Shown here: in pieces, positions 12,667 through 28,762 of the stretch
Position numbering within the stretch: the first letter of the stretch is position 1
Layout of the letters: the number at the start of each line of letters is the position of its first letter
Assembly (NCBI GenBank): GCA_020161935.1
Contig: JAIUNI010000006.1
Location: 124,001-188,000, forward strand
From: Chloroflexota bacterium
Lineage (GTDB): Bacteria; Chloroflexota; Anaerolineae; Aggregatilineales; Phototrophicaceae
Length of the DNA stretch: 64,000 bases
Reading direction: 5' to 3'
The notes under the pieces: generated by a model
What the model was told of the DNA's origin: nothing
The model's input: the letters and a program-made list of their open reading frames with translations, nothing else
The model's database searches: none
Made by a program: the position numbers and the translations under genes

Positions 12667-14238
12667 TTATCCGGGGCGGGCGATGACGACGAGGCGTTCA
12701 CTGTAGAACTGGGTGGCGGGGTCGTAGGAGGGGAGGTCACAGGTGATGAGGGTGAGTTTATCGTCGCCGCTGGGGTAGGCGACGGTGAGGTCTTCATAAT
12801 TGACGACGAGCTTTTCGGTGACGACATAACGGCGTTCGCCACCATCGACGTTGACGATGACCGGATCACCAATGTTGAGTTGGTAAAGGCCAGCGAAGAT
12901 GCCGGGTTTGCCGTTGGGGTAAGCGGAGTGACCGCCGAGTACCACGTTGCCGATGTTATTGAACCACGCGGTTCCCTGCAAATGCCCAACCAGCTTTTCC
13001 CACGGGTCGATTGCCCAGCTTGTGCCATCCAACGGAAACGTTTTGATGTTCACGAACACGTTCACGGTAGGCATCGAGAGGGTTGTGCCGCCGAACACGG
13101 GAGCGACGGCGGGCAGGGCGAGCGGCGGGGCAATTGCTGGAACGGGATTGGTAGGCAAAGGGATAGTGGTTGGTAACGGCTGCGGTGTAAACACGGGCAG
13201 GGCGCGAGTGGGCTGCGGGGCAGGGGGTAGGGTGGCGGTGGGGACGATGGCGACCTGTTCGGGGACGCGGTTGCTGATGTTCCATGATTCGATGAGGCCG
13301 TCGATGCCTGCGGTGACTGCCCAACCCCCATCGGCGTTGAGGGCAGTGCTGCCGAGCATAGTGGCGCTGCCCTGTAAGGTGGCGATGGGCTGACCGCTGG
13401 CGGCATTCCAGAAGCGGAGCGTGCCGTCAAGGCTGGCGGTGATGAGGCCGCGCGAGGTGAAGCCTGCGCCAGTTAATGGGCCGTAGTGACCAGTGAGGGT
13501 GAGTAAGGTGCTGGCGGATTGGGGCGGCGATAGGCTGACATCCCACAGGCGAGCAGTGCGATCCCAACTGCTGGAGATAAGGCGTGTGCCATCCGCATTG
13601 AAGGCGAGGGCAGTGACGGAACCGGCGTGACCATCCAAGCGGATGACGGAGTTGTCGTACAAGCCCCACAGCCAGATTGTGCCATCACCGCTGCCGGTTG
13701 CCAAGCGGCGGCCATCGGCGCTAAAGGCGACGCTCCAAACCGCGCCGTTGAAGTTGGTGAGGCGGGCGAGTTCGCGACCGGTGGCGGATTCGCCAATCCA
13801 GATGAACCCGTCGAGGCTGGTGGTGGCGAGTAAGCGGCCATCGGGGCTGAAGGCGACACCCGTGACCGAGCCGGTGTGATGAGTGAGGACGGCGCGCGGC
13901 GTGAGGGTGGCGACATCCCAGAGGCGGACGGTGTTATCCTGACTGCCGGACGCGACAGTTAGATTATCGGGTGAGAGGGCAACACGGGTGACCCATGCGG
14001 TATGCCCGATGAACTGACCGATCAGTTCACCGGAGGCATTCCAGAGGCGCACGATGTTATCGCGCCCGCCGCTGACGAGGAGCGCACCGTCGCGGCTGAT
14101 GGCGACAGCATCCAGCGGGGACGTGGGGATTTGCGAGTCAGGCGTGGTGAGGGTAATCGGCGCGGCTTGAGAACGGGCAACCAGAAGTGGAAGCGCGAGG
14201 GTTAGGCTGATGAGCAGCGGGACAAAACGGCGCAGCAT
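12667..14238 (-). CDS. WD40 beta-propeller fused to a class E/F-like sortase
   Basis: A 523-residue protein from the ATG at 14238. It begins with a signal peptide (MLRRFVPLLISLTLALPLL... SQA), followed by seven WD40 blades (about 35-325), a Pro/Thr/Ala-rich linker (about 330-385) and a C-terminal sortase domain. The sortase residues are present: His437 in LGGHSA, Cys500 in TLITCD and Arg515 in SERLVV. Sortases are extracytoplasmic transpeptidases that cleave and join sorting-signal proteins; here the propeller would sit on the same side of the membrane. The frame is open for 22 more codons upstream but the signal peptide fixes the start. Sortases joined to a propeller are unusual. Confidence 0.88.
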   Translation of the reverse strand: MLRRFVPLLISLTLALPLLVARSQAAPITLTTPDSQIPTSPLDAVAISRDGALLVSGGRDNIVRLWNASGELIGQFIGHTAWVTRVALSPDNLTVASGSQDNTVRLWDVATLTPRAVLTHHTGSVTGVAFSPDGRLLATTSLDGFIWIGESATGRELARLTNFNGAVWSVAFSADGRRLATGSGDGTIWLWGLYDNSVIRLDGHAGSVTALAFNADGTRLISSSWDRTARLWDVSLSPPQSASTLLTLTGHYGPLTGAGFTSRGLITASLDGTLRFWNAASGQPIATLQGSATMLGSTALNADGGWAVTAGIDGLIESWNISNRVPEQVAIVPTATLPPAPQPTRALPVFTPQPLPTTIPLPTNPVPAIAPPLALPAVAPVFGGTTLSMPTVNVFVNIKTFPLDGTSWAIDPWEKLVGHLQGTAWFNNIGNVVLGGHSAYPNGKPGIFAGLYQLNIGDPVIVNVDGGERRYVVTEKLVVNYEDLTVAYPSGDDKLTLITCDLPSYDPATQFYSERLVVIARPG

Positions 14239-14450
14239 ACGATTGCTCGGTTTATTGAAAGTTACGTCGGTTCGATGGAAGGTGATGTGACCCCAGTATG
14301 CCACTAATCACCCCCTCTACGCAAACCGCGATTTTCGCATAGTCTGTAATTCTATTTAGAATTGGTTTAACCTCTCGTAATGAAATCGAAATCTAAAACG
14401 ACTATGCTGGTAGCAGTCAAAATCTCGTCTGAGGGGGTATAAGTGGATTG

Positions 14451-24494: not shown

Positions 24495-24920
24495 AAGTTC
24501 TCCTTTGGTGAATGTGTGAAGATGAAGCACGGACGAGATGTCAGGCTTGTCCGTAGTTAAATATGAGGCTCTTTGCGTCGCATGAGGCTAAAGCCGTCAT
24601 GCTAACCACCGGACAAGTCCACTAAAGGGACTTCAGATCCTCGGCTAATTAACCATTTTGACGCTCAAATCTAGCAGGACTGGATCAATACAGATCCTAC
24701 ATCCATGCACAAGTAATGACATAAACTACGGACAAGCCTTGTATCGCGTCCCTACACTGTGAACATACAGCAACATTTACCTCATGACGGTTATCTTGCT
24801 GTTGGATGCACATATGTTCTAAGGACTATACTGGTTTTTAGCGAATCCGTAAAGATACCTTTGGACTTTTGTAACACTTAGGTGGGTGAGGGGTCTTAGT
24901 GAAGGAATAGCTTTGGAGGG
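24495..24920. other. Intergenic region with palindromic repeats
   Basis: No gene seen. It holds diverged members of the palindrome family: GGACGAG...CTTGTCC at 24534-24552 and ACAAGCCTTGT followed by CGTCCCTACAC at 24732-24756. Two genes diverge from it, so promoters for the reductase-esterase pair and the sigma-factor operon must lie here. Confidence 0.6.
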
Positions 24921-24926
24921 GTGAAT

Positions 24927-25481
24927 GTGCATCGTCCGGCGATGACACCTGACGACGAAATCCGCATTCTACGACTGGCACAGCATGACCGCTTGTTGTT
25001 CGCGCCTATTTACGAGGCGTATTTTGAGCGTGTGTATGCCTACTGCCTGCGGCGAACCGGCAACGTACAGGAGGCGGAGGACTTGTGCAGTCTGGTGTTC
25101 ATACGGGCGCTGGGAGGGTTGGCAGGATACCGAGGTGGGATGGTAGCGGCGTGGTTATTCACGATTGCCCACAATACAGTCGTGAAGCACTACCGCGCTA
25201 AACATCCGATTACGGCGTTGGACGATGCAGTCGAGATCGCGGTGGAGTCCGACCTGAACGAGGTGGATGAGATGGAAATGTGGCGCACGGTGGCGGGGTT
25301 GGTGAAGGCTTTACCGGATGAACAGCGGGAACTGCTGGCGCTGACATTGGACGCGGGTTTGAACTCGCAGCAGGTGGGCGAGATTATGGGCAAGAACGCG
25401 ACGGCGGTGCGGGTGCAGCTCCACCGGCTGCTGAAGCAGTTACGCGAACAGTACGAGAAGATCAGCGGGGAACCGGCGTGA
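24927..25481 (+). CDS. ECF-type RNA polymerase sigma factor
   Basis: A ~184-residue sigma-70-family protein with region 2 (YEAYFERVYAYCLRRTGN ... EDLCSLVFIRAL) and region 4 (LKALPDEQRELLALTL-like, then QVGEIMGKNATAVRVQLHRL), and no region 3, as in ECF sigmas. GGAGG lies seven bases before the GTG at 24927; an in-frame GTG at 24921 would be too close. It overlaps the next gene by 4 bp, the usual arrangement of an ECF sigma with its anti-sigma partner. Confidence 0.88.
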   Translation: MHRPAMTPDDEIRILRLAQHDRLLFAPIYEAYFERVYAYCLRRTGNVQEAEDLCSLVFIRALGGLAGYRGGMVAAWLFTIAHNTVVKHYRAKHPITALDDAVEIAVESDLNEVDEMEMWRTVAGLVKALPDEQRELLALTLDAGLNSQQVGEIMGKNATAVRVQLHRLLKQLREQYEKISGEPA

Positions 25482-27730
25482 TGAACGACCAATCCGAACT
25501 CTTAGAGCAGTTTTTAGAGCTGCTGCGGGGCGACCCCCAAACCTTGCCACCGGAAGGACTTGATCCAGCGCTGGCGGACTTCGCGCGGCGGATGCTGCAA
25601 ACGCCGAAGCCGGATGCTAACCTGCGGGGGCGCATCTGGGAGCAAGCTATTCAGTCCCAACCCTATTCTAATGGGCGCGTGCAAGAACCTGTCGATATGG
25701 ATAAGGAGAACGAGTTTATGGTCATTAAAACCCCAACCACACGGCGCAGTACATGGGCGTGGACGGTATTGGTGGCAGCGGCGGCCTGTGTCGTCGGGAT
25801 TATCTTCATCATGCGGTCGCCAACGCCGAACGTATTTAGCAGCATCAGCTTGCAGAACGCGGCGACCTTAACACCGAGCGCGACCCTGACACCTAGCCTG
25901 ACGATTACGCCGAGTTTAACCGTGACACCCAGCCTGACGATTACGCCCAGTTTGACGGTCACACCCAGCGCTACACTGACACGCGACCCGCAGATGCAGT
26001 TCCCGACGTTTACGTCCGAAGGTCTATTTAGTGAATCATCGTTGCAATCCATGATAATGACGTGGGAGGCATGTACCCAGCGTTTAGATGCTGGATCTAG
26101 TCCATATGAATATACGATTCAGCCCGGTGACACACTGGGTACTATCATTCAGCAATACTGCTATTACGATATGAGTGTTGGGTCAGGTGGTATTATCGAT
26201 CAAGTCATGCAATTGAATAACATCCAAGACCCTGATAAGCCGTTGGAGATGGGTACAGTTATCCTGATCCCCCGACCAACACCCACGACGTTAGGGGGAA
26301 TGTCACCTGCTGCACCGACACCTGATCTACAGATGCAACTGCCGACGTTTACGTTTACGCCGTTCGTGAACGCCTCGATGGGGGCGTATGAATACACGAT
26401 TCAAGAAGGGGATACGCTTGGTTATATCATCGCGCAATTTGGCTACCGTGACCTGAGTGTTGGGCAGGGAGGTATTGTCGACCAAGTGATGCGCCTGAAT
26501 AATATTCAGGACGCTAACGCGCTGCCGCCAGCCGGTACGGTGATGCTGATCCCACTACCGACCGCAACCCCCACCGCGCCGACTGCCGAGGAAGCCGTGT
26601 ATATGACGGCAACGGCGTTGGTTCAAGGCGCAACCGCGACCGCACAGGCCATGCCGGTTATCCAACCCATCCAAATAATTCCCGGTCATGCCAATCGAAA
26701 TGATGGACTGAGTACAGGAACACTTTCGGAGAATAATCCGGTGATGAGTTATCAGTTTACAGCCGATGCTGAGGGCGTGGTGGTGCTGAGTCTTTCGACC
26801 AGCAGCGAAATTAATCTTGTGAGCCTCGACCATACGGTTATTAACGCGAACAGTTCAGGTGGTGGGGGTGGCGGCAGCAGCGGTGGGGGCGGCAGCGTGA
26901 ACCCGATTGTCATGCAGAGTGTGAGCAGCCATTTCCTTGTACATCAGGGGGACACTGTACAGGTGAACGTGCGATTGAACGCGCCTCCCGGTATCTTTTC
27001 ACCTGAGCAAGAGATTCCTTATGAACTCGATATTCGGTTGCAGAATGTGGTGGCGCTGAACCAAGACCCGTTTGATGCGACGGCAGAAGATACACTGAAC
27101 GACTTTAACCCGATGGTGCTGTATTCGTTCGACGCGGCGGCTGGTGACCGTGTGACGATTAAGGCGACGGGTGTGGATGGCTTCGACTCGACACTTGAGC
27201 TTTATGACGCGACGTTTAATCCGGTGGGCGATATTTCAGTGGCATTCGACTATGACAGCGGCGCGGGTTATGACCCTGAAATTCACCAAATGGTACTGCC
27301 GACCAGTGGCAAATACTATGTGCTGGTGACATCCGGCAACCTCGGCTACGGGGCGTTCAAACTCGAACTGACGAAAGCCCAGATTCCATCGTTGGACGCT
27401 GGGACACAAGTCGCACGGTTTAATACACCGATTAACCCGCAGTTTGTGTTTGAAGGTAGGGCGGGGCAAGCGGTAATGCTCGAGATCACGCTGCCGGAAG
27501 ATGCCAGCGATTACATGGTACAGTCGGTTGATGTGCATGTGTACCAGAATGGGGCGCTGGTGGAGGTGTTGAACCACACTGCGGTTGCCAGACCTGTTCA
27601 AGGTATTGTACTGGTTGCCAACATCAATCCCCCGGCGGATGGGCCGGTTGTGGTGGAGATTGCCGCGAAGGGCAAGCTGACCCAGCCGAGCGAGCAGGTT
27701 TTCCGGCTGGAGGTCAGGTTGGGGGAGTAG
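25478..27730 (+). CDS. Single-pass membrane LysM protein, candidate anti-sigma factor
   Basis: A 750-residue protein: a ~90-residue cytoplasmic part, one membrane helix (about 94-112), a Thr/Pro/Ser repeat stalk (129-168), two LysM-like modules (about 205-262 and 305-362, each starting YEYTIQ.GDTLG), a Gly/Ser hinge near 465-480 and C-terminal beta domains of pre-peptidase type. The 4-bp overlap with the ECF sigma gene suggests that the cytoplasmic part holds the sigma factor. No zinc anti-sigma HxxxCxxC motif is visible, so this is inferred from context. LysM binds N-acetylglucosamine polymers such as peptidoglycan. Confidence 0.8.
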   Translation: MMNDQSELLEQFLELLRGDPQTLPPEGLDPALADFARRMLQTPKPDANLRGRIWEQAIQSQPYSNGRVQEPVDMDKENEFMVIKTPTTRRSTWAWTVLVAAAACVVGIIFIMRSPTPNVFSSISLQNAATLTPSATLTPSLTITPSLTVTPSLTITPSLTVTPSATLTRDPQMQFPTFTSEGLFSESSLQSMIMTWEACTQRLDAGSSPYEYTIQPGDTLGTIIQQYCYYDMSVGSGGIIDQVMQLNNIQDPDKPLEMGTVILIPRPTPTTLGGMSPAAPTPDLQMQLPTFTFTPFVNASMGAYEYTIQEGDTLGYIIAQFGYRDLSVGQGGIVDQVMRLNNIQDANALPPAGTVMLIPLPTATPTAPTAEEAVYMTATALVQGATATAQAMPVIQPIQIIPGHANRNDGLSTGTLSENNPVMSYQFTADAEGVVVLSLSTSSEINLVSLDHTVINANSSGGGGGGSSGGGGSVNPIVMQSVSSHFLVHQGDTVQVNVRLNAPPGIFSPEQEIPYELDIRLQNVVALNQDPFDATAEDTLNDFNPMVLYSFDAAAGDRVTIKATGVDGFDSTLELYDATFNPVGDISVAFDYDSGAGYDPEIHQMVLPTSGKYYVLVTSGNLGYGAFKLELTKAQIPSLDAGTQVARFNTPINPQFVFEGRAGQAVMLEITLPEDASDYMVQSVDVHVYQNGALVEVLNHTAVARPVQGIVLVANINPPADGPVVVEIAAKGKLTQPSEQVFRLEVRLGE
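25867..25983. repeat. 18-bp coding repeats (Thr-Pro-Ser stalk)
   Basis: About six in-frame 18-bp units encode alternating TITPSL / TVTPSL / SATLTP hexapeptides just outside the membrane helix of the LysM protein. Near-identical DNA units mean the stalk could change length by slippage without a frameshift. Confidence 0.8.
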
Positions 27731-27913: not shown

Positions 27914-28351
27914 ATGCCTGTACAACGCTCACACTTTCGCCCTGTTTCGGCATTCGCGCTGCTCATCGCGGTGGTCAGCTTATCGGCTTGCGGGTTGCTT
28001 GGGATTAACCGGTCGGATTGCAGCCAAGAAGTTTTGCTGATGCTGGAGCTTGACCCACCGGAGAGCGCGACCTTTACCGAGGAACACTGCTCGATGGGGA
28101 TCGTCAACCCGACTTATACGGCGACCCTGACGATACCGGCGGTTGATCTGGTGGCCTTCCAGCAGAACACACACATTGAAAGCTGGCTGACGACAGCGGT
28201 TTCCGCCCTGTCCTTAAAGGATCAGGCAGAGGGAATGGACTCGATCCTGTTTGGAAGTTTCAGCGATGGGGCGATTAGCGAAGAAGTGCTGATTGATACC
28301 CGCAACCCGCAAGCCTATACCGTGTATGTGGTGCGGACGTTTATTGACTAG
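27914..28351 (+). CDS. Predicted lipoprotein of unknown function
   Basis: A 145-residue protein with a signal peptide ending in the lipobox LSAC (Cys26). The mature part has two further cysteines (CSQEV, EHCSM) and no family I recognise. It ends immediately next to the stop of the convergent gene at 28352. The ATG is preceded by AAGGA. Confidence 0.75.
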   Translation: MPVQRSHFRPVSAFALLIAVVSLSACGLLGINRSDCSQEVLLMLELDPPESATFTEEHCSMGIVNPTYTATLTIPAVDLVAFQQNTHIESWLTTAVSALSLKDQAEGMDSILFGSFSDGAISEEVLIDTRNPQAYTVYVVRTFID

Positions 28352-28735
28352 TTACCAGATGTTACCCGCGCCGGGGGTATAGGTCGTACCGGCTACGGTG
28401 TTGGCGATGATAGTATCACACTGAACCGTACCGCTGACCTTGACCATGCCGGAGTTGATTTGTATCAGGCTGCTGTTGATGACCATTTGTGACGCATCCA
28501 TTTTGATGTTGGCTGCTGCCTGAATGTGTACGCCATCCGAATCTAATGTGACGGTGTTGCCATTGGTATCCTGAATGGTGATGCTGTTTTTGTTCAGATT
28601 AATTTGCTGACCGGTGCTGTTTTGAAGCCCAATCGTTTCGGCATTTTGGGTGGTGCGGATGCCGAGCGCGGTTAACTGGTCGGTGATGCTGCTGCCGCGA
28701 AACAGGTTGAATAGGGTATTCAGAAAGCTGTTCAT
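28352..28735 (-). CDS. Repetitive beta-rich protein of unknown function
   Basis: A 127-residue protein. After a short helical start (SFLNTLFNLFRG) it is a run of short beta repeats rich in Asn, Thr, Ile and Val (INLNKNSITIQDTNGNTVTL, DGVHIQAAANIKMDAS). This resembles the beta-helix spikes of phage baseplate/VgrG tips, but no other phage or secretion gene is near, so I make no functional claim. GAGGTG supports the ATG at 28735. Last gene of the long minus-strand run. Confidence 0.65.
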   Translation of the reverse strand: MNSFLNTLFNLFRGSSITDQLTALGIRTTQNAETIGLQNSTGQQINLNKNSITIQDTNGNTVTLDSDGVHIQAAANIKMDASQMVINSSLIQINSGMVKVSGTVQCDTIIANTVAGTTYTPGAGNIW

Positions 28736-28762
28736 ATGCACCTCACCAGTGAACGATTTTAT

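Follow-up and report, generated by a model that had tools for sequence, protein, structure and literature searches.

A putative ECF sigma/anti-sigma pair with outer LysM modules in a Chloroflexota bacterium, and the apparently undescribed zinc-free domain family to which its inner part belongs

Anti-sigma factors of class I place a three-helix bundle on sigma4 and a fourth helix on sigma2, and those of class III, exemplified by RsbN, place two helices on sigma4 and the third on sigma2 (PMC7406223). In RsgI, the inner domain binds the sigma factor, the outer module binds glycan, and intramembrane proteolysis frees the sigma factor (PMC4711584, PMC12203970). The locus described here lies in a stretch of 64,000 nucleotides from a Chloroflexota bacterium of the order Aggregatilineales (contig JAIUNI010000006.1), which we call the window. 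Judging from its sequence and that of its relatives, we consider it quite probable that the locus encodes an autoregulated switch made of an ECF sigma factor and a membrane anti-sigma factor, the latter with a zinc-free inner domain and an outer LysM sensor.

The first gene of the pair (24927..25481, + strand) encodes an ECF sigma factor with regions 2 and 4 only. Its open reading frame (24921-25481) scores 51.1 bits against Sigma70_r2 and 29.1 bits against Sigma70_r4_2, both above the Pfam cut-offs and with no other Pfam domain between them (no region 3), and 71 bits against TIGR02937 of NCBIfam (cut-off 42.9). The closest families are BldN and SigW, and 6dxo_A is a good PDB match. The top NCBIfam model is TIGR02952 (BldN family) at 97.4 bits, far under its curated cut-off of 206.45, and membership of the BldN subfamily was rejected on this ground. 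Although the frame opens with GTG 24921, the start given in the initial annotation, GTG 24927, fits best, because GGAGG stands ahead of it at about 24914-24919 and the orthologous locus L035 has no in-frame start just 5' of the matching position. The downstream gene (25478..27730, + strand; 750 aa) starts with GTG 25478 or ATG 25481, giving an overlap of 4 or 1 nt with the end of the sigma gene; its product is a putative membrane-anchored anti-sigma factor with LysM modules. The Pfam domains and this overlap agree with the earlier description of an ECF sigma gene overlapping a LysM membrane-protein gene. A small lipoprotein gene (27914..28351), 3' of the LysM gene on the same strand and conserved in position in L035, is a possible third gene of the operon. 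Beyond it, an open reading frame on the reverse strand (28352-28741), present in L035 too, contains repeats such as VHIQAAANIKMDASQMVINSS and resembles the C-terminal spike of VgrG/gp5-type proteins. Elsewhere in the window, about 21 tandem copies of the 7-bp unit CTGACAA occupy 730-880, and 12667-14304 (reverse strand) encodes a single protein with WD40-like repeats followed by an apparent sortase domain.

Upstream of the sigma gene lies an ECF-type promoter, TGTAAC-N17-GTCTTAG (24870..24899, + strand; -35 at 24870-24875, -10 near 24893-24899). It is the sole match to the pattern within the window, where shuffles expect a mean of 0.02, and in the whole 7.6-Mb genome (G000) the extended form stands at one place only, ahead of this sigma gene; just one other sigma gene in that genome has the promoter within one mismatch. 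Upstream of 26 homologous sigma genes, the form TGTAAC-N16-18-GTCTYW was exact in 18, carried one mismatch in 6 and two in 2, the window's copy being exact; 24 of the 26 thus show the promoter with at most one mismatch, compared with two to five mismatches before 20 ECF genes of other kinds and mostly three to four in shuffled upstream regions. Since these sigma genes have a conserved ECF-type promoter in common, the sequences point to autoregulation of the sigma factor. The promoter search found no regulon beyond the operon itself, looser patterns being no commoner than reversed controls. One-mismatch sites common to G000 and a second genome, G010, are TATAACAATTGG..., ahead of a membrane protein, and TGCAACGTTTGC..., which is repeated. 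Nearly unchanged copies of TGCAACGTTTGCTGCAAAAGGCAGTCTTTA were also seen at L197, L198 and five more places (four times in G000, three times in G010), and may represent a repressor operator or a repeat element.

The layout first proposed for the downstream product, namely a short cytoplasmic part, one membrane helix, a Thr-Pro-Ser stalk, two LysM modules and beta domains, agrees with both Pfam and hydropathy. The cytoplasmic three-helix domain (residues 2-60; 25481..25657, all features of this protein being on the + strand) carries the motif LLxxYLxxLxxDPxxxPPxGLDxxLAxFxRxL...RxWxxA, as defined from alignments. This segment holds no His or Cys and hence no Hx3Cx2C, in line with the initial annotation, which had recognized no zinc anti-sigma motif; assignment to the zinc-binding class I anti-sigma factors was rejected for the same reason. 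Hydropathy indicates a single membrane helix at residues ~94-114, preceded by RR (25757..25819), and one membrane segment at the same location across the family, that of L036 lying slightly under the threshold. The stalk (25862..25981) consists of LTPSxT units encoded by an 18/36-bp tandem repeat (25862-25969). LysM (PF01476) scores 52.1 bits against a gathering cut-off of 20.9 over two stretches: module 1 (residues 212-265; 26111..26272) is the best of them and is absent from the orthologue L035, and module 2 (residues 304-359; 26387..26554) takes its coordinates from an HMM with module 2 itself among its seeds. An outer region rich in beta structure and containing a Gly-rich insert (26705..27727) includes a PPC domain at residues 548-619 (27119-27334; Pfam 32.3 bits, cut-off 25.9), and is common to relatives without LysM, with 39-40% identity in genome G013. 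The earlier suggestion of a stalk of variable length is not borne out by L035, whose stalk has as many repeats as the window's, at 83% identity; the difference lies in the LysM modules, of which the window has two and L035 one. This difference, together with the 57% identity between the window's two stretches, indicates a recent gain or loss of one module. Elsewhere, the closest LysM relatives are lipoproteins whose stalks are similar, and the flanking sequence seen contains no sigma gene.

Among relatives found by whole-protein search, the first ~100 residues occur independently of the outer parts; a whole-protein search of genome contigs returned no related loci. A profile built from eight aligned N-terminal domains (hereafter the first type) was searched against 154 Aggregatilineales genomes and matched in 27 of them at E <= 0.01. 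All 16 strong new matches with flanking sequence, seeds excluded, are immediately preceded by an ECF sigma gene of the same orientation, and almost every one overlaps it or begins within ~60 nt of it. At the level of the class, three of four weak matches were sigma-linked, the weakest (L112) being unlinked, and a sigma-based search recovered the pairs already known along with four additional sigma loci that contain the domain. The first type is centred on Aggregatilineales, since only 6 of 400 genomes in a sample of the phylum gave a match. Comparison of the inner domain with Pfam, NCBIfam and PDB sequences yielded no convincing match, and it apparently represents an undescribed family, absent from Pfam and NCBIfam. 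Distances between sigma factors correlate with those between inner domains (r 0.67 over 28 pairs; the highest of 2000 permutations gave 0.35), and shared ancestry accounts for part of this co-variation. Two loci deserve separate mention. L104 is a homologous pair in genome G047 whose anti-sigma domain is split across two frames, either broken or a sequencing error, and L113 (JAPUDW010000142.1), titled Bacteroidetes bacterium, is the closest orthologue pair with conserved synteny and is probably mislabelled.

A second type of domain in the anti-sigma position, DCxxRLxxGxxxxxCLxxYPxxAxxLRPLL, is found in 67 of the 154 Aggregatilineales genomes. Each of the 30 loci inspected is linked to a sigma gene, and LysM is present in 13. 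The profiles of the two types align over all three helices (hhalign 88.9%, E 2.4e-6; 0.2% for the control with the sigma factor), with a profile score of 33.6 versus at most 15.3 in 60 column shuffles. Because this alignment exceeds both controls, the two types are taken as distant homologues that probably descend from one ancestral anti-sigma domain. Putative sensing by LysM is a recurrent arrangement in Aggregatilineales.

Structure prediction of the cytoplasmic part, proposed earlier as a test, gave a three-helix domain rather than disorder. AlphaFold2 places helices at 3-17, 29-40 and 46-58 of the window's fragment, with pLDDT of ~77-81, 79 and 61, respectively. In L098, translating past the sigma stop, with TAA and TGA as residues, fuses the two proteins, and the three helices of this divergent member reach a pLDDT of ~82-92; the joined model has a pTM of 0.49, which does not resolve the docking of domain and sigma factor. 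The higher helix confidence in the joined model is suggestive only, since the models come from two distinct members. A fold search with the 77-aa model returned a single, unrelated match (Z 2.4), and the joined L098 model in VIA-align was covered mainly in its sigma part.

The outer parts behind the membrane helix are far more varied. Pfam detects LysM in the window, L035, L096 and L101, and PPC in L035, L036, L092 and L102; L103 carries SH3, along with a LysM-like module detected only by an HMM with that module among its seeds. WD40 is found in L130 and L131, a SecDF P1 head in L126, and C39, TPR and M23 in L100, so that these four are putative anti-sigma factors with WD40 propellers, a SecDF head or C39/TPR/M23 peptidase parts; L109 shows weak MucB_RseB and DUF4367 matches. 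LysM occurs in 5 of 31 first-type proteins, and because most members lack it, LysM is one among several interchangeable outer modules. The initial annotation had read the LysM protein as an anti-sigma factor and had suggested looking for sigma/LysM co-occurrence elsewhere in Chloroflexota. Such co-occurrence was found with both domain types. Comparative evidence gives good support for an anti-sigma role of the first ~60 residues, namely the constant linkage to ECF sigma genes, the co-variation, the predicted three-helix domain and the homology to the second type.

How might such a switch operate? The N-terminal ~60 residues, as a zinc-free three-helix domain, would hold the sigma factor at the membrane, with the single helix spanning it and the stalk, the two LysM modules and the PPC-like beta domains projecting outside. 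The expected ligand of LysM is glycan that contains GlcNAc, for example the cell's own peptidoglycan, and the sigma factor could be freed by a changed glycan contact, or by cleavage outside followed by intramembrane proteolysis. Both a protease and peptidoglycan are likely present, since the genome encodes M50 proteases and transglycosylases (glycosyltransferase family 51). Free sigma factor would act on TGTAAC-N17-GTCT to transcribe the operon that encodes it, and possibly a few other genes as well. It is plausible that peptidoglycan is read by the LysM modules themselves and that this frees the sigma factor.

In one alternative to this scheme, the inner domain is an anti-sigma domain, LysM is merely a tether to the wall, and sensing falls to the PPC/beta part, or else the signal is of a proteolytic or mechanical kind. 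L036, L038-L040 and L092 combine the same inner domain and a similar PPC-like outer part with no LysM, and orthologues vary in LysM number, as this alternative would have it; however, the recurrence of LysM in both domain types suggests more than an incidental anchor, and we regard a mere tether as a real but lesser possibility. Far less credible is that the LysM protein is simply an envelope protein under sigma control. Its gene does share an operon and a promoter with the sigma gene, yet what is conserved with the sigma factor is the short inner domain, the outer part varying from genome to genome, and the co-variation of sigma factor and inner domain speaks against this reading as well, as does the overlap of the genes in the order usual for sigma/anti-sigma pairs.

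A different question is whether the inner domain could be a divergent class III domain of the RsbN type. BldN is the family closest to the sigma factor, which has TIGR02952 as its best NCBIfam model and 6dxo_A as a good PDB match, and RsbN, compared here by description, likewise has three helices (PMC7406223). Against this stand the distance of the TIGR02952 score from its cut-off, the lack of a sequence match between the inner domain and any PDB chain, and the uninformative outcome of the fold search; we consider a domain of the RsbN type possible but less likely than not. The reading of the pair as a sigma/anti-sigma switch with an outer LysM sensor is the one we prefer.

To our knowledge, envelope sensing by Chloroflexota is largely uncharted. 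In the mostly open-access literature searched, we found no LysM-bearing anti-sigma factor. On balance, we lean toward the view that zinc-free three-helix anti-sigma domains form a large and so far undescribed superfamily in Chloroflexota, the inner domain with its cognate sigma factor and promoter serving as a socket for LysM, PPC, WD40 propeller, SecDF-head, SH3 and C39/M23 modules. If so, these proteins would make up a repertoire of envelope and glycan sensors in which wall sensing by LysM is frequent, at least in the second type, and LysM on an anti-sigma factor would link wall glycan directly to transcription. With a defined inner domain, a promoter and natural sensor swaps, anti-sigma sensing becomes testable by changing the outer module alone.

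Among known systems, the class I anti-sigma factors RseA, RsiW, RskA and ChrR share with this locus an adjoining ECF partner, an inner helical domain and often a membrane anchor (PMC7406223). Unlike the zinc-binding proteins of that class, the inner domain here has no Hx3Cx2C, a motif held by only part of class I (PMC7406223); it also has no profile match, and its conserved part has three predicted helices rather than four. RsbN/BldN, of class III, resembles the pair in its sigma family, the nearest one, in its three helices and in its membrane anchor (PMC7406223, PMC8103513), but the sigma factor here falls well under the BldN cut-off and the domain has no detectable sequence match. RsiV/SigV of Bacillus subtilis follows a like design, with a membrane anti-sigma factor, a cell-wall-related cue and regulated proteolysis; RsiV senses lysozyme (PMC6066255), whereas the outer modules here are LysM and PPC-like domains. 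Pfam scans gave no match to the RsgI N-terminal domain, and membership of that family was rejected. SigI, moreover, falls outside the ECF factors, which comprise just regions 2 and 4, and the outer modules of RsgI (CBM3, PA14, GH10 and others) differ from the LysM, PPC, WD40 and other modules found here. In its organization, however, SigI/RsgI of Clostridium thermocellum is like the present locus, with overlapping sigma and anti-sigma genes and an autoregulated promoter (PMC4711584, PMC12203970), and RsgI likewise combines a short inner domain, one membrane helix, a stalk and interchangeable outer modules.
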